From Bacteroidaceae bacterium (GTDB lineage Bacteria; Bacteroidota; Bacteroidia; Bacteroidales; Bacteroidaceae), in NCBI GenBank assembly GCA_017535725.1, contig JAFXTO010000055.1, positions 1-63,251 on the forward strand: a stretch of 63,251 nt of DNA, read 5' to 3'. Below the pieces are notes generated by a model. That model was not told the DNA's origin, did no database searches, and was given only the letters and a program-made list of their open reading frames with translations. Of this stretch, positions 12,328 to 58,882 are shown piece after piece (within the stretch, counting starts at the first letter, position 1; each line of letters starts with the position of its first letter). A program made the translations under genes and the position numbers.

Positions 12328-12540
12328 AAAATTGAAAGATTGAAAATTGAAAGATTGAAGATTGAAAAATTGAAGATTGAAAAATTGAAGATTGAAAAAT
12401 TGAAGATTGAAAAATGGGGCGGCTGATTTTTTTCGGAATAACGGAATAACGTGATAACGGAATAACGAAGCCGAGAAAGGTAGAAAATTGAAAGATTGAA
12501 ATATTGAAATATTGAAATATTGAAAAATAAAAATATAAAA
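12325..12540. repeat. ATTGAAA tandem repeats with GGCGGC..GCCG composite
   Basis: The 225-bp gap is almost entirely AAATTGAAGATTG words around one composite unit (GGGCGGCTGATTTTTTTCGG, then GGAATAACGTGATAACGG, then CGAAGCCG). No gene. Despite this gap the next gene keeps the same orientation and is probably in the same operon. Confidence 0.75.
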
Positions 12541-12552
12541 TACTATAATATT

Positions 12553-15075
12553 ATGAAGAAGTATTTAAAACTGCTGCTCTGTGCAGCTGTGGGAATCAGC
12601 GCATTCACCGCTTGCGAGGATGTGCCCGAACCTTACAACATCCCAACCGAAAGCAACGGCGGCAACAATGGTGGCAGTACCACGGTCTTAGACTACGTTC
12701 TCAATCAGAACTTCTTGACTTCAAAGGGTGATTTTACCACCAACAGCTCCAGCGGTGACTTGAAGTGGACACACAGCTCCAAGTACGGCGCCATGATCAC
12801 CGGCTATGATGATTTCGATGGCGACGGTAAGAAGGAGAACAAACCAGGCGTGACAACCTTTGTCAGCCCTGAGATAGACCTCACCGACGTCGACAGCGCA
12901 TTTATCGTTATTGATCAGGCTATCAACTGGGCCAAAACGACGCTTGAATCCGACCACAAGCTCTTGATACGCATTGTTGACAGCAACGACCCAGCCACAG
13001 AGCTACCAATGAGCTATGAGGGTCTTGGCAACGACTTTAACTACGTGAAGCAATACATCCAGATACCACAGGAGTTTATGGGCAACAAGGTAAAGATTGG
13101 CTTGAAGCACACGGCTCACGACGACTACTCCTCCACGTGGGAGGTCAAGGAGCTCAGCGTGGCCAAAGGCACAGCGCCCAGCAACGAAAGTCCGATTATT
13201 GAGGACGGTGTGGGCAGCGGCACAGCCGACGACCCCTACGATGTTCCCACCACCATCAAGCTCATCGCCGCAGGTCCTCCGTCAAAGAAGATTTACACCA
13301 AGGGTATCATATCAAAGATTAATGAGATCGACCCGAGCTACGGCAACGCCACTTATTTCATTAGCAACGACGGTACAACCACCGACCAGTTGGAAGTCTA
13401 TCGTGGCTATGGACTTGGAGGTGCTAAGTTCAAGTCAGAGAATGACCTGAAGGTAGGTGACGAAGTGATTGTCTATGGCGTTGTTGTCTATTACAACAAC
13501 AAGACCATGGAGTTCACGCAGGGCAGCGAAATCTACAGCCTCAATGGTGAGACCGCTGGCGGCGGCAGTGGTGATGAGACAGGCATAGAAGTGACTTGTG
13601 CTCAAGCTGCGGAACTGACCAATGCTCTGGCTGATGGCGGTACTTCTGATGAAACTTATACCGTCACAGGTTACATCACCGAGGTCATAGGTTCTCCAAG
13701 TCGTAACCAGCAGACCTTCTGGATGGCCGACACAAAGGACGGCGGTAAAGTGTTCGAGGCTTACTATGCAAACCTTCCCGAGGGTGTCAGCGAGTTCAAA
13801 GTTGGCACGAAAGTGAAGATAACAGGTAAACTCATGAAGTTTGTCAAGGATAGTAAGGTGACTCCCGAAATCAAGAATGCCAACGTCGTAATTCTTGAGG
13901 ATGGTGGTGGAACCCCTGTCACTCCAACAGGCATAGAAGTGACTTGTGCTCAAGCTGCGGAACTGACCAATGCATTGGATGATGGCGGTACATCAGATGA
14001 AACTTATACTGTCACGGGTTACATCACAGAGGTCATTGGCTCTCCAAGTCGTAACCAGCAGACATTCTGGATGGCTGACACGAAGGACGGCGGTAAAGTG
14101 TTCGAGGCATACTATGCAAACCTTCCTGAGAGTGTCAGCGAGTTCAAGGTTGGCAGTAAGGTGAAGATAACGGGTAAACTCATGAAGTACGTCAAGGATG
14201 GTAAGGTGACTCCCGAAATCAAGAATGCGACCGTTGAAATTCTTGAGGACGGTGGTGGTGATACCCCTATTACTCCTACGGGCACTGACGTGACCTGCGC
14301 ACAGGCAGCAGCATTGACCAATGCACTGGCTGATGGTGGAACCTCCGAAGAGACCTATTCTGTCACGGGTTATATCACCGAGGTCGTTAGTAATGTTAGC
14401 CGTAACCAGCAGACCTTCTGGATGGCCGACACCAAGGATGGAGGCAAAGTGTTTGAAGCTTATTGGGCTAATCTGCCTGAAGGCGTCAGCGAGTTCCAGG
14501 TTGGCTCGAAGGTTAAGATAACGGGACAGCTTATGAAGTACGTCAAGGATGGTAATGTGACTCCCGAAATCAAGAACGCCACCGTCGAAATTCTCGAAGC
14601 AGGCGATGATCCCGGTGATAACCCTGGTGACAATCCCGGTGATGACAATAAGATAAGCCCGACCCGCAGTGGCGATCAGGTGGTGACCTTCAGTGGATTC
14701 AGCAGCACCACCTTGCAGATTGTGAATGATTACACTGGCACTTCAGGTGGCACCCAGCTCCGTATCCTCAACCTCGAAGTGACCTACGCCAATGGCACTA
14801 CCGAGCAGGCTGTGATGAGTCAACTTGGACTTAATAACGCCGATGCCCTGAGCACCTATACCTTAGGCGGTCTCACCCTCATATTCGATAAGGGTGAAGG
14901 TGGCACTCAGCCCGCTTACTACACTGGTGGCGGTGGCGCAGCCCGTATGTATGCCAAGAATAGCTTGACCATCACGGCGAATAATGCCATCACAAAGGTG
15001 GTGGTTAACTGCACAGCACCTGATGGCAGTAAGAGCTACAACGGCAATGAGCAGCTTTATGCAGTAGCTGAATAG
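12553..15075 (+). CDS. Large lipoprotein with four OB-fold domains, three in near-identical tandem
   Basis: 840 residues from the ATG at 12553, which gives a lipoprotein signal ending FTAC-E. Residues 20-215 form a beta-sandwich of the choice-of-anchor type (FVSPEIDLTDVDSAFIVIDQ). Residues 220-340 are a first OB-like domain (ADDPYDVPTTIKLI). Then three copies of about 115 residues follow (start EVTCAQAAELTNAL, middle QQTFWMADTKDGGKVFEAY, end KVTPEIKNA), joined by Gly/Pro linkers; the last linker is DDPGDNPGDNPGDDN. They match DUF6359-type OB folds annotated as nucleic-acid-binding. A C-terminal beta-domain ends the protein. It probably sits on the cell surface next to the receptor and captures ligand with high avidity. 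Confidence 0.82.
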   Translation: MKKYLKLLLCAAVGISAFTACEDVPEPYNIPTESNGGNNGGSTTVLDYVLNQNFLTSKGDFTTNSSSGDLKWTHSSKYGAMITGYDDFDGDGKKENKPGVTTFVSPEIDLTDVDSAFIVIDQAINWAKTTLESDHKLLIRIVDSNDPATELPMSYEGLGNDFNYVKQYIQIPQEFMGNKVKIGLKHTAHDDYSSTWEVKELSVAKGTAPSNESPIIEDGVGSGTADDPYDVPTTIKLIAAGPPSKKIYTKGIISKINEIDPSYGNATYFISNDGTTTDQLEVYRGYGLGGAKFKSENDLKVGDEVIVYGVVVYYNNKTMEFTQGSEIYSLNGETAGGGSGDETGIEVTCAQAAELTNALADGGTSDETYTVTGYITEVIGSPSRNQQTFWMADTKDGGKVFEAYYANLPEGVSEFKVGTKVKITGKLMKFVKDSKVTPEIKNANVVILEDGGGTPVTPTGIEVTCAQAAELTNALDDGGTSDETYTVTGYITEVIGSPSRNQQTFWMADTKDGGKVFEAYYANLPESVSEFKVGSKVKITGKLMKYVKDGKVTPEIKNATVEILEDGGGDTPITPTGTDVTCAQAAALTNALADGGTSEETYSVTGYITEVVSNVSRNQQTFWMADTKDGGKVFEAYWANLPEGVSEFQVGSKVKITGQLMKYVKDGNVTPEIKNATVEILEAGDDPGDNPGDNPGDDNKISPTRSGDQVVTFSGFSSTTLQIVNDYTGTSGGTQLRILNLEVTYANGTTEQAVMSQLGLNNADALSTYTLGGLTLIFDKGEGGTQPAYYTGGGGAARMYAKNSLTITANNAITKVVVNCTAPDGSKSYNGNEQLYAVAE

Positions 15076-15096: not shown

Positions 15097-15981
15097 ATGA
15101 AGCGCGAAACACAACGTATCCTCCTGCTCCTGGTCACTCTCCTACCCTTCTTTCTCTGGAGCTGCTCCTCGAATGATGATGAGTTGGATAGTGCGACGGC
15201 CAACATCAACGCCAACCTGAAGGCTGATGGGCCCGAAGCTGCCCGATTAGAGATTCCCAAGCTGAAAGGAGGAGTCGTCAACAGATTCCTCGTCAAGAAA
15301 CTCAGCAGTGGGGAGGTCAACTTCTGCATCGAATGGGACATCGCCAAGAAAGCACAGCGATGGACCGCCTTCCGATGGGACAACACCAACAGCGGCGGCT
15401 ACATCAAGCGCGAGGATAACTTCATTGAGGATACTGATATTCCAGAGGAATACCGAACGACATACGAGAACTACCGGGGGTCGGGCTACACACGAGGACA
15501 TATCTGTGCCAGCGCCGACCGCTGGAACTCCCTCGAAGCCAATCGTCAGACGTTCCTCTACTCGAATATGCAGCCGCAGCTCTACAGTTTCAACGGTGGC
15601 ATCTGGGCGAATATGGAGATGAAAGTGCGCTCGTGGAACACGGCAGACTTCCGCGACACGCTCTATGTGGTTAAAGGAGGTACTATCGACCACAACTCCG
15701 ATATCATCGAGCATACCAGCACCGGACTGCTCGTACCCAAGTATTTCTTCATGGCTATCCTCTGCAAGAACAAGAGCACAGTCAATGAAGGCTACAAGGC
15801 TATTGGTTTCTACCTCGAGCACCGTTCGTTCTATGAAGATGAGAAGACGCTGTCGCCCTATATCGTGAGCATCGATAAACTCGAGAACCTCACGGGCATC
15901 GACTTCTTCTGCAACCTTCCCGACCGCATCGAAAATCAGGTGGAAAATAACGTGACGCCTGCGGCGTGGGGATTTCAGTAG
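15097..15981 (+). CDS. DNA/RNA non-specific endonuclease lipoprotein (NUC1/NucA family)
   Basis: 294 residues, 21 bp after the OB-fold lipoprotein. The signal ends in a lipobox FLWSC-S. The beta-beta-alpha-metal nuclease motif is TRGHICASADRW, with the catalytic histidine in the usual RGH context (the common D before RGH is T here). The metal-binding asparagine lies in LYSNMQPQ, and N-x-E appears in GGIWANMEMKVR. NUC1 enzymes cut single- and double-stranded DNA and RNA to oligonucleotides. As the last gene of the receptor operon it would degrade nucleic acid at the cell envelope. Confidence 0.92.
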   Translation: MKRETQRILLLLVTLLPFFLWSCSSNDDELDSATANINANLKADGPEAARLEIPKLKGGVVNRFLVKKLSSGEVNFCIEWDIAKKAQRWTAFRWDNTNSGGYIKREDNFIEDTDIPEEYRTTYENYRGSGYTRGHICASADRWNSLEANRQTFLYSNMQPQLYSFNGGIWANMEMKVRSWNTADFRDTLYVVKGGTIDHNSDIIEHTSTGLLVPKYFFMAILCKNKSTVNEGYKAIGFYLEHRSFYEDEKTLSPYIVSIDKLENLTGIDFFCNLPDRIENQVENNVTPAAWGFQ

Positions 15982-16031
15982 GGCGAAAAATCTCTTTTTT
16001 AGGGATTCGGATGCAGAAAGTTGAGGAAATG

Positions 16032-16064
16032 TTTGGTCAGGTCGCAGAAAAGCAGTAATTTTGC
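16032..16064 (+). promoter_or_regulatory. Promoter of rpmE
   Basis: TTTG (16032-16035), 20 nt, TAATTTTGC (16056-16064). The transcript should start near 16070, giving a leader of about 80 nt. Confidence 0.8.
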
Positions 16065-16082
16065 GCCGCAAATTCAATGAAC

Positions 16083-16132
16083 GTAGGTACACAAGCCCTA
16101 CAAAGTATTCACCGCCGGTACACAAGCCCGGC
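16083..16132 (+). promoter_or_regulatory. Twin-hairpin leader of rpmE (candidate L31 autoregulatory leader)
   Basis: Two hairpins stand in tandem: GTAGG-TACACAAGC-CCTAC (16083-16101) and GCCGG-TACACAAGC-CCGGC (16114-16132). The 9-nt loops are identical while the stems differ but still pair, as expected for selection on structure plus loop sequence. They sit between the promoter and the start codon of the ribosomal protein gene. A protein, possibly L31 itself, may bind the loops. Confidence 0.7.
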
Positions 16133-16151
16133 AACAATCTACTCCAAAACA

Positions 16152-16403
16152 ATGAAACAAGGTATTCATCCCGAGAACTATCGTCCTGTTGTCTTCAAGG
16201 ACATGAGTAATGGCGACATGTTTCTGAGCCGTTCCACCGCCAAGACCACGGAAACCGTGGAATTCGAAGGCGAGACCTATCCCGTCGTCAAGCTCGAAAT
16301 CTCCAGCAGCTCCCACCCCTTCTACACCGGTAAGAGCAAGCTCGTTGACACCGCTGGTCGCGTCGACAAGTTCATGAGCCGCTACGCTCGCAGCCGCAAG
16401 TAA
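16152..16403 (+). CDS. rpmE: 50S ribosomal protein L31 type B
   Basis: 83 residues from the ATG at 16152 ([19 protein letters not shown]). The protein lacks the zinc-binding CxxC pair of type A L31 and contains the conserved [10 protein letters not shown] and [10 protein letters not shown] segments, which identify the zinc-free type B form. L31 bridges the ribosomal subunits at the central protuberance. The gene is monocistronic, with its own promoter, structured leader and terminator. Confidence 0.96.
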
Positions 16404-16467
16404 ACCTTCGGCACTGCGCAGGAGTACAACAGGAACGTTACCGTTGTCGGTCTGCAAAACTTACAGA

Positions 16468-16505
16468 AGGCTTCTGATGTTCGCATCGGGAGTCTTTTTT
16501 TTTTG
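16468..16505 (+). terminator. Rho-independent terminator of rpmE
   Basis: An 11-bp stem GGCTTCTGATG / CATCGGGAGTC (with G-U pairs) closes a UUCG tetraloop and is followed by about ten T. It lies 65 bp after the rpmE stop. Confidence 0.9.
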
Positions 16506-16585
16506 CATTAAATAAATTAAAAACGTCTTTCAATATAATAAATGCGCGCGCGTTGCGTTATTATATTACAGAAAGAGTTGAAAGC

Positions 16586-17695
16586 ATGGCGCCATACAGC
16601 TTTTATATCTCGCTGGCATTTATGATAGGAGCCGTTTGTACGGCCATCATAATACCGCTGATTATAGCTTTCTGCCGTAAGTTTGGTTTCTACGACCAGC
16701 CTAACGAGCGGAAGGTGCATCATGCTGCTATACCCCGACTGGGCGGTTTGGCCTTTTTGCCCTCGCTGGGTATCAGTTTCCTGACCGTTCTGCTCATCTA
16801 TGCCACCTCCACCGACAGTCTTGGCAGCTTCCATATCTCCGCCGCAGTGATGGTGCTTGGTGCCTGCATCATCTACCTCATCGGTCTGTTGGACGACCTG
16901 CTTGACCTTCATGCCACCACCAAGTTCATCATCATGTTTGTGGCCTCTGCCTTCATCCCCTTATGCAATCTTGTTATTGGGAATCTCCACGGTCTTTTTG
17001 GCATCTATGAACTTCCTCTGTGGGTGGGCTATGGGCTGACGGTGTTGGTTATCATGACCTTGGTCAATGCGCTCAACCTGATTGACGGTATCGATGGTCT
17101 CTCCTCTGGTATCTCCATCATCGCCTTGTGTATCTATACCTATTGTTTTATCGACCTGCGCAACATCGTCTTCTCGGTGGCATCGGCGGGTCTTCTGGGT
17201 GCCGTGGTGATGTTTTTCTTCTACAATGTCTTCGGCCGGGTGGGTCGTTTGAAGATTTTCATGGGCGATGCCGGCAGCCTTATTCTGGGCTACGTCCTAT
17301 CCTACCTGAGCATCAAGTACACGTTGGTTTGTGAGCACGACATCTACACCGAGGTCAATCCCCTCTTGCTTCCCATGTCCATCTTCCTGGTTCCCGTGCT
17401 GGATCTGATACGTGTGGCATTGACCCGACTGATGGCTGGTGAACCGATGTTCAAGGCTGACCGCCGACATATTCACCATGTCCTGATGTCTGCCGGCCTG
17501 TCCATGCACCAGACCCTCTGCATCATCCTTGGTCTGGTCGCCGGTTTCATCGTGCTCAATCTGTGGTTGGAACAGGCTATGGTTCCCCTGACCGTCATCT
17601 TCCTCCTCGACCTGTCGCTATTCATTATCTTCTTCGTGGTCGTTTACAGCGTGGTTCATCGCCGCGAATCCATGACGGAAATGATAACAGAGTGA
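16586..17695 (+). CDS. Undecaprenyl-phosphate sugar-1-phosphate transferase (WecA/MraY family, GT4-type)
   Basis: 369 residues from the ATG at 16586; an earlier TTG at 16553 is less likely. The protein has about ten membrane segments. Family motifs are DQPNERKVHHAAIPRLGG near residue 33, the DDLLDLH aspartates, NALNLIDGIDGLSSG (D-x-D-G loop), GDAGSLILGY, and the late DRRHIHHVLM, the histidine motif of WecA. These enzymes start O-antigen, capsule or teichoic-type glycan synthesis by moving GlcNAc-1-P or a similar sugar to the lipid carrier. H-I-H-H favours WecA-like over MraY. It is followed by repeats and converges with rny. Confidence 0.92.
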   Translation: MAPYSFYISLAFMIGAVCTAIIIPLIIAFCRKFGFYDQPNERKVHHAAIPRLGGLAFLPSLGISFLTVLLIYATSTDSLGSFHISAAVMVLGACIIYLIGLLDDLLDLHATTKFIIMFVASAFIPLCNLVIGNLHGLFGIYELPLWVGYGLTVLVIMTLVNALNLIDGIDGLSSGISIIALCIYTYCFIDLRNIVFSVASAGLLGAVVMFFFYNVFGRVGRLKIFMGDAGSLILGYVLSYLSIKYTLVCEHDIYTEVNPLLLPMSIFLVPVLDLIRVALTRLMAGEPMFKADRRHIHHVLMSAGLSMHQTLCIILGLVAGFIVLNLWLEQAMVPLTVIFLLDLSLFIIFFVVVYSVVHRRESMTEMITE

Positions 17696-18262: not shown

Positions 18263-19822
18263 TTATTTTGCATAGCTGACAGCACGTGTCTCGCGAATGA
18301 CGGTAATCTTCACCTGACCGGGATAGGTCATTTCGTTTTGTATCTTCAGTGCGATGTCGTTGCTGAGTGTCTCTATCTGTTTGTCGTCAATCTTATCAGC
18401 CCCGACGATGACACGCAGTTCGCGTCCAGCCTGGATGGCATACGTCTTGGTGACTCCTGTATAGCTCATGGCGATGTTCTCGAGATCCTTCAGACGCTTG
18501 ATGTAAGCTTCAGCTATCTCACGGCGGGCGCCCGGTCGTGCTCCACTGATGGCATCACAGATCTGCACGATGGGGGCAATCAGCGATGTCATCTCCATCT
18601 CTTCGTGGTGAGCACCGATGGCGTTGCAGATATCCGGTTTCTCCTTGTATTTCTCAGCCAGCTTGGCACCGTAGAGTGCGTGTGGCAGTTCGGGTTCCTC
18701 GTCGGGCACCTTACCTATGTCATGCAGCAGTCCGGCACGTTTTGCCTTCTTGGCGTTCAGTCCCAGCTCGCTGGCCATCACTGCGCAGAGATTAGCTGTC
18801 TCGCGGGCATGCATCAGCAGGTTCTGTCCATAACTGGAACGGTATTTCATCTTTCCGACAATACGGATGAGTTCCGGATGGAGACCATGAATACCCAGGT
18901 CGATGGCCGTGCGCTTGCCCACTTCCATGATTTCCTCGTCCACCTGTTTCTTCACCTTGGCCACCACCTCTTCAATACGTGCGGGGTGGATACGTCCGTC
19001 GGCCACCAGCTGGTGGAGTGCGAGGCGTGCAATCTCACGACGTACTGGGTCGAATCCGCTGATGACAATCGCCTCGGGCGTGTCGTCCACCACGATTTCT
19101 ACCCCAGCAGCAGCTTCCAAAGCACGGATGTTACGGCCTTCGCGCCCGATGATGCGTCCCTTCACATCATCGTTCTCGATGTGGAATACGGTGACGCTGT
19201 TCTCCACGGCGGCCTCGGTGGCCACACGCTGTATGGTCTGGATGACGATGCGCTTGGCCTCCTTGTTGGCGGTCATCTTGGCATCATCCATGATTTCGTT
19301 GATGTAGCTGGCAGCATTGGTCTTGGCCTCGTCCTTCAGCGTCTCGATGAGTCGTTCCTTGGCTTCTTCCGCTGTCAGGCCGCTGATTTTCTCCAGCTGG
19401 GTGCGCTCCTGGTTGATGAGGTTTTCCAAGCGTTGTCCCAGTTCCTCTTCGCGTTTCTGGAGGATAGCCTGTTGTTGTTCCAGGCGTTTGCGTTCTGCCT
19501 CCTGCTCGCTCTTACGACGATTGAGCTCGTCTTGACGCTGGTTCAGGCTTATCTCGCGTTGCTTGATGCGGTTCTCGCCCTGTTGAATCTGTTGGTTGCG
19601 CTGTTGCACTTCCTTCTCCAGTTCAGCTTTCTTGTTGAGGAATTTCTCCTTGACTTCGAGCAGTTTCTTCTGTTTAATGACTTCGGCCTCTTTCTTGGCC
19701 TCTTCATGCAGCTCCTTGACTTTTGCGGGCTTGATGCGGTTGTACCAGATTAGCTGGTAGATACACACAGCCACTGCTACGAGAGCGGATGCGATGGTGA
19801 TTATCAATCCTGTTAGTGACAT
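18263..19822 (-). CDS. rny: Ribonuclease Y
   Basis: 519 residues with the full RNase Y order: an N-terminal membrane anchor ([20 protein letters not shown]), a long coiled coil to about residue 190 ([10 protein letters not shown].., [16 protein letters not shown]), a KH domain with the GxxG loop in [15 protein letters not shown], and an HD domain ([12 protein letters not shown], later IGAHHEE). It is a membrane-bound endoribonuclease that starts mRNA decay. Length is usual for the family. It lies downstream of zapA and a candidate small RNA and has no obvious promoter of its own. Confidence 0.97.
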
Positions 19823-19941: not shown

Positions 19942-20232
19942 TTACTTCAGGGCCTCGTTGACCTCATTGATAAGGCCATTGAGCTGTGCCATGATAGGCT
20001 CGAGGTTTCCGCTGGCTTTGCTTTTCTCGTACCTCACGGCAATATCTATGAGCGTCATCAGCAGGTAGACATTACTTTGCTGGCCCGCATAGGTGTTCGC
20101 ATAATGCGTGTGCTGCTTGTTGATGAACTTCTCGGCGTTGCGGTAGAAAATCTCCTCATCACGCTTGGCATCGATGCTGAAATTCTGACCGCATAACTTG
20201 AGTGTTATCTTTAGGGTATCGCTGACTTCCAT
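19942..20232 (-). CDS. zapA: Cell division protein ZapA
   Basis: 96 residues with the ZapA pattern: LKITLKLCGQNFSIDAKRDEE (the family's I-x-G-x-x-Y/F segment), EKFINKQ, a helix QQSNVYLLMTLIDIAVRYEK and a C-terminal coiled coil. ZapA tetramers bundle FtsZ at the Z-ring. The gene follows a small coiled-coil gene and precedes the 6S-like candidate and rny. Confidence 0.92.
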   Translation of the reverse strand: MEVSDTLKITLKLCGQNFSIDAKRDEEIFYRNAEKFINKQHTHYANTYAGQQSNVYLLMTLIDIAVRYEKSKASGNLEPIMAQLNGLINEVNEALK

Positions 20233-58808: not shown

Positions 58809-58882
58809 TGACTCCTATAGGATTCAAACCTATAACCTTCTGATCCGTAGTCAGATGCTCTATTCAGTTGAGCTAAGGAGCC
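58809..58882 (-). tRNA. tRNA-Arg (anticodon ACG)
   Basis: The minus strand folds as a cloverleaf: acceptor GGCTCCT/AGGAGTC, D arm GCTC..GAGC, anticodon arm TCTGA-CTACGGA-TCAGA with anticodon ACG, and T arm with loop TTTGAAT between ATAGG and CCTAT. Discriminator base A; CCA is not encoded. It lies upstream of clpC. Confidence 0.95.

Follow-up and report, generated by a model that had tools for sequence, protein, structure and literature searches.

A two-hairpin leader at the L31 gene in a genus of Bacteroidaceae: a candidate autogenous ribosomal protein leader

Why should the gene for a ribosomal protein be preceded by two adjacent hairpins that carry the same loop on different stems? The question is raised by a contig of 63,251 nucleotides from a Bacteroidaceae bacterium (the window), in which a preliminary description placed such twin hairpins at 16083-16132 between a promoter and the start codon of rpmE. 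The coordinates proved exact and the placement is supported by the sequence. We have followed this element through the genus and order of its host, and another leader of rpmE through the family and taxonomic class, and ask here whether it is a leader through which L31 controls its own synthesis.

The rpmE leader in the window

On the + strand, hairpin 1 (16083-16101) consists of the arm GTAGG (16083-16087), the loop TACACAAGC (16088-16096) and the arm CCTAC (16097-16101). Hairpin 2 (16114-16132), the constant one of the two, has the arms GCCGG (16114-16118) and CCGGC (16128-16132) around the same loop, TACACAAGC (16119-16127). Both are supported by the sequence, the predicted fold and the alignment pairing described below. 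The linker between them occupies 16102-16113, and the loop-to-loop distance is 30-32 nt in all 25 leaders with twin loops. Upstream lie a -33 promoter element, TTTG (16032-16035, + strand), and, spaced 20 nt from it, a -7 element, TAATTTTG (16056-16063, + strand), of the form TAnnTTTG; the consensus quoted for Bacteroidota promoters is TTTG / TAnnTTTG (PMC7366714). The position of the -7 box makes 16064-16082 the probable transcript start region, and were transcription to begin just past this box the leader would be about 80 nt long; the median 5' UTR reported for Bacteroides thetaiotaomicron is 32 nt (PMC7366714). An A-rich spacer (16133-16151, + strand) separates hairpin 2 from the ATG by 19 nt in the window and by 16-21 nt across 33 distinct leaders of this design. 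The open reading frame that follows (16152-16403, + strand) is rpmE, the presumed regulated gene; its 83-residue product is a type B L31 by profile match (NF002462, 129.2 bits against a cut-off of 86). A terminator scan found an intrinsic-terminator-like hairpin with a T run 3' of rpmE (16465-16498, + strand), which suggests that the rpmE transcript probably holds rpmE alone. It is the sole site of its kind in 15980-16530 (0.7 expected in shuffles), and since the leader itself has no terminator, transcription attenuation is unlikely.

Two copies of the 13-mer GGTACACAAGCCC lie in the window, against 0.00 expected, and none of 100 shuffles has two. The predicted fold of 16080-16136 is exactly the two hairpins (-13.5 kcal/mol, z -2.43; 4 of 200 shuffles are equally stable). 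Energies for the leader alone are modest (z -2.2 to -2.4), and with 39 nt of coding sequence added (16070-16190) the fold, which keeps both hairpins, has a stability no greater than that of shuffled sequences (z -0.18). Since folding energy by itself carries little weight, the case for structure rests on comparison with relatives.

Several neighbours of rpmE in the window may be recorded. A tandem domain repeat, with three nearly identical copies of a segment that starts EVTCAQAAELTNAL (or DVTCAQAAALTNAL), lies in a large open reading frame at 12520-15075, and a lipoprotein-like frame at 15097-15981 contains TRGHICASADR, which we take to resemble DNA/RNA non-specific endonucleases. The genes at 16553-17695, 18263-19822 and 19942-20232 presumably encode an undecaprenyl-phosphate sugar-phosphate transferase, ribonuclease Y and ZapA.

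Distribution and covariation of the class A leader

L31 was detected in 57 of 61 and 69 of 78 genomes of the genus, together 126 of 139, and the leaders of 121 of these 126 were examined (G039, G188, G196, G203 and G204 were left out). Motif words sort these leaders into class A, the twin-hairpin design of the window (34), and classes B (48), C (22) and C2 (14); the remainder comprise one with another UUACCA form, one with no motif and one too short to judge. The class A carriers form a clade of gut and rumen bacteria. The exact 13-mer has 61 matches in 34 of the 139 genomes, against 8 for a reversed control, and L31 adjoins it in all 30 of the matching loci examined. A covariance model of class A (R1), which can tolerate loop changes and whose strict filters may lose weak matches, gave 35 matches in the same 34 genomes, none further having an altered loop. 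Each match lies directly 5' of L31, on the same strand and 12-17 nt upstream of the L31 match. There is one R1 match per genome except in G191, where both precede an L31, and we have discarded the idea of a dispersed regulon; across the 139 genomes the class A element is seen at rpmE only. The two L31 matches in G191 (C22:2956-3204 and C31:102580-102828) have equal scores, as do their R1 matches, and reflect either a true duplication or assembly redundancy.

The element is more narrowly distributed than the Bacteroidia form that had been supposed: among 295 genomes sampled from the order, R1 matches the window's own genome and 0 of the 294 others, and within the genus it matches 34 of 139 genomes. 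Conservation in related genera had been set beforehand as a test, and the twin design fails it; another structured leader stands there at rpmE.

The 66 class A loci with the word GGTACACAAGCC reduce to 34 distinct leaders, or 33 once L068, which contains Ns, is dropped. Two hairpins are predicted in all 33, and TAnnTTTG lies upstream of hairpin 2 in every one. The two loops are identical in 25 leaders (the twins), in which TTTG precedes hairpin 1 by 13-23 nt; hairpin 1 is divergent in the other 8. The divergent regions are predicted hairpins with z from -1.5 to -3.1 (2-27 of 300 shuffles as low), individually weak, with a mean of -1.90 against -2.03 for hairpin 1 of the 25 twins.

We aligned 27 of these leaders (alignment A1), namely the 25 twins and two (L075, L085) in which a stem of the same type bears an altered loop, leaving out six with another hairpin 1 (L018, L023, L031, L077, L078, L081). 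Pairing is kept in 99.6% of 270 cells, and 5 of 10 pairs are changed on both sides. There are 30 double-change cells against 7.2 in shuffles, and the covariation score is 0.314 against 0.107 (reached by none of 500 shuffles; slid-partner controls give at most 0.026), figures that are not probabilities since the sequences are related. Further pair types number 7, not above the 7.4 of shuffles. In hairpin 1, 99.3% of cells are paired across the 27 leaders and two pairs are double-changed, in 8 and 16 sequences; in hairpin 2 all cells (100%) are paired and three pairs have double changes. RNAalifold recovers both stems unaided. The most direct evidence is the set of stems found around one loop: GTAGG, GCTGG, GCAGG, GTCGG and GCCGG. 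Because rows were picked by the loop word, it is in part a matter of definition that the hairpin 2 loop and the two inner GG/CC pairs do not vary; the changes, however, fall in the outer three pairs, which are independent of that selection.

As the stems covary in A1, we conclude from these comparisons that selection has acted on the RNA structure of the class A leader, in line with the preliminary description, which had argued as much from the two stems of the window. The element appears to act as RNA and not as DNA, its pairing being kept while the arms vary and its loop being asymmetric. The expectation of covarying stems with fixed loops holds for the stems and for the loop of hairpin 2, which would be the constant core of the leader, but not for hairpin 1, which has another loop in 8 of 33 leaders.

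Other leader designs at rpmE

In class B an internal loop that starts UUAUC separates an inner stem from the outer one, which reads GCCCC/GGGGC or, alternatively, GTCCC/GGGAC or GCTCC/GGAGC. In an alignment of 40 of its 43 distinct leaders (L185, L196 and L205 were left out) 97.8% of 359 cells are paired, with 26 double-change cells against 5.2 in shuffles and a covariation score of 0.277 against 0.151 (slid controls up to 0.164). The corresponding model, R3, has 50 matches in 50 of the 139 genus genomes, none of them a class A genome; no genome among the 139 has both classes. All but one of the R3 matches lie 13-22 nt before an L31 match, the last (G238) being near a contig end in a genome where L31 was not found, and one leader that the motif words place in class B (L156, in G020) gave no R3 match. 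Some class B leaders (L157, L158, L033, L204) have a GGAG word about 10-15 nt upstream of the rpmE start, although Bacteroidia ribosomes are reported not to recognise Shine-Dalgarno sequences (PMC9976891).

Class C combines CCAUUACAC with a hairpin that has a UUACCA loop; CCAUUAC lies near the presumed 5' end and is followed by the stem that closes the loop. Of its 58 distinct leaders 50 have a stem of at least 4 pairs, whereas shuffling the flanks gives such a stem in 12.2%, and there are 32 different 5' arms. Its model, R2, has 59 matches in 59 of 151 family genomes and in 18 of 30 genera. Of these, 58 lie 13-31 nt from an L31 match and the remaining one (G288) is followed by an L31 start, read by eye, that is cut by the contig end. 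Named carriers include Bacteroides clarus, B. caecigallinarum, a Phocaeicola MAG and Paraprevotella clara. Across the taxonomic class R2 matches 2 of 198 genomes, one in the window's family and one not at L31, and we have therefore dropped class C as a Bacteroidia-wide design. The latter match (G461 C11:650701-650739, L342), which has no L31 match in the stretch examined, is probably due to chance. Looser CATTA..UACCA forms occur in loci of other Bacteroidales families, and the motif words are absent from the leaders of Prevotella vespertina, Segatella maculosa, Hoylesella timonensis and H. oralis. In C2 leaders (L034, L035, L038, L144, L150, L153, L178) UUACCA sits beside a small hairpin, inside an outer stem resembling GAATAG/CTATTC; C2 is perhaps a rearranged form of class C. 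A UAC core common to classes A and C is a further idea.

The published L31 leader motifs are, we presume, included in Rfam 15. Only a tRNA in the window (58809-58882) reached the gathering cut-off, and 20 loci covering the leader classes gave 0 matches. Six hits below threshold around rpmE (E 0.0086 to 9.5) are put down to chance or to the rpmE terminator; they include a Twister-P5 match over 16043-16100 (12.7 bits against a cut-off of 37.6, E 6.1) and one to the terminator-like hairpin at 16465-16498. That the form is undescribed, as had been surmised, agrees with this result and with the literature searched: neither that literature nor Rfam 15 yielded a Bacteroidota L31 leader. The five L31 leader motifs described by Eckert and Weinberg (2020, PMC7247131), from Actinobacteria, Coriobacteria, Corynebacteriaceae, Firmicutes and Gammaproteobacteria, look structurally unrelated there. 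They are given as single hairpins, none from Bacteroidota, whereas class A has two hairpins that usually share one loop. The present classes suggest that the structural unrelatedness of L31 leaders extends inside a single genus. The same source lists L13 and S4 leaders in Bacteroidia, autogenous candidates from the same class of bacteria that serve other genes (PMC7247131).

How the class A leader may act

The reading we favour, with a probability of about two in three, is that class A is a cis-acting leader that binds L31 and represses rpmE translation, hairpin 2 being the main site and the copy in hairpin 1 a second one. We infer autoregulation, and the binding of L31, from the gene specificity of the element, from the five published L31 motifs (PMC7247131) and from E. 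coli, where L31 and L31p are reported to repress rpmE translation through its 5' UTR (PMC9825181). The E. coli rpmE leader is alike in having a stem-loop before the start codon that is needed for regulation by L31-type proteins; its reported determinant is a long stem interrupted by an asymmetric internal loop, whereas the constant part of class A is a terminal loop (PMC9825181). In the mechanism that we propose, L31 that remains free once its ribosomal place is filled would recognise, in hairpin 2, the fixed loop GG-UACACAAGC-CC, and also hairpin 1 where that has the loop copy. Bound hairpin 2, ending 16-21 nt before the AUG, would lie within the area of the 30S footprint and so block initiation. 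A second identical site one linker away could give higher affinity or a steeper response. With no ligand, the A-rich start region would be open and the default state thus ON. Two identical sites are not essential, given the other hairpin 1 loop in 8 of 33 leaders. Classes B, C and C2 would be other RNA structures that control rpmE in sister lineages, and the use of different RNAs at one gene fits with a constant ligand.

The E. coli L20 leader likewise has two sites, for L20, in one mRNA leader, and these mimic 23S rRNA; the two class A sites are putative, and a likeness to rRNA was not found for them: the class A, B and C words are at chance level in two rRNA operons from other genera of the family (L308, L309), a third (L310) being mostly masked. 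Mimicry of rRNA is common among ribosomal protein leaders but is not required.

Might the hairpins instead serve without any ligand, protecting the 5' end of the mRNA from degradation or fixing its translation level? Hairpin 1 stays a hairpin without its loop in 8 of 33 leaders, as if structure alone counted. Yet stability needs no fixed loop, and in 34 genomes hairpin 2 has one and the same 13-nt loop region though its stem changes, R1 having found no additional genome in which it is altered; together with the presence of the element at one gene only, this leaves passive hairpins quite unlikely. Another trans-acting factor that senses the state of ribosomes and has rpmE as its target, be it an RNA-binding protein, a small RNA or some other ribosomal or assembly factor, might well suit a fixed single-stranded loop. 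Global factors, however, usually have several targets, whereas in 34 genomes the element is at rpmE only, and classes A, B and C would each require a factor of their own; we think this explanation unlikely.

Readings in which the element acts as DNA or as coding sequence fare far worse. Inverted repeats that adjoin a promoter could be an operator for a repressor such as Zur, and both Zur and zinc are reported to affect L31 expression in E. coli (PMC9825181). But here the arms vary between copies and species while a non-palindromic loop is constant, the reverse of a palindromic operator, and in all 33 distinct leaders the -7 box precedes the element. Moreover, the L31 of the window is type B and the class A consensus has no cysteine. 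With no fixed palindromic arms, the covariation speaks against an operator for Zur or any other repressor, which we reject as very improbable. It is no more credible that the leader encodes an N-terminal extension of L31 or a leader peptide. The L31 frame is open from an ATG at 16077 to 16403, as it is over the last 75 nt before L31 in 24 of 33 class A leaders, but the other 9 have an in-frame stop, the frame is not kept across loop spacings of 30, 31 and 32 nt, substitutions track base pairing, and the L31 family profile begins at the residue encoded from 16152. We reject a coding extension on the stops and the frame.

The L31-binding leader accords with what is expected of its class: the element lies in the 5' UTR after a promoter, its structure covaries (in 27 of 33 leaders of one genus) and it is associated with L31. 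We regard the finding as real, a candidate autogenous ribosomal protein leader of new architecture with unusual exchange among close relatives.

Possible exchange of leaders among close relatives

A tree of 130 rpmE coding sequences (117 from the genus, with L068, L075, L146 and L210 left out, and 13 from outside it) rests on 249 columns and its bootstrap is not settled. It places the class A rows in one group (99/96), apart from a class C row of another genus on a long branch (L104) that falls inside it, C2 in one clade (96/89) and 42 of 48 class B rows in one clade (98/95), the other 6 lying elsewhere. Class C is scattered (10 changes), as expected of an ancestral state. Early class A branches have the divergent hairpin 1 (L018, L132, L031, L023, L128, L137) and also the twin form (L141, L135), and L134, deeper inside, is without the twin form. 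This distribution suggests that hairpin 2 may be older and that the second loop copy was a later acquisition, perhaps a repeated one.

Classes A, B, C and C2 have nearly the same L31 consensus. It differs most clearly at residue 30, which is Ala in all 31 class A proteins and in 41 of 48 of class B but Cys in all 22 of class C and all 14 of C2; this may reflect common descent only. It is possible, at somewhat less than even odds, that one genus saw at least three leader exchanges at the L31 gene, from an ancestral class C to A, B and C2, with nearly the same L31 reading all of them, and that in class A the second loop copy arose on a pre-existing hairpin to give a two-site, possibly cooperative sensor.

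Bacteroidota are common in the gut, yet Rfam 15 and the literature searched held no L31 leader from them. The designs described here are short, testable RNAs (about 37-65 nt) for a single 83-residue protein. Their evolutionary closeness lets one ask how the regulation of a protein survives the replacement of its RNA partner, a question that the occurrence of class C in Bacteroides and Phocaeicola makes testable in laboratory Bacteroides strains. If the proposed history is true, the RNA ligands of one protein turn over faster than the protein itself.
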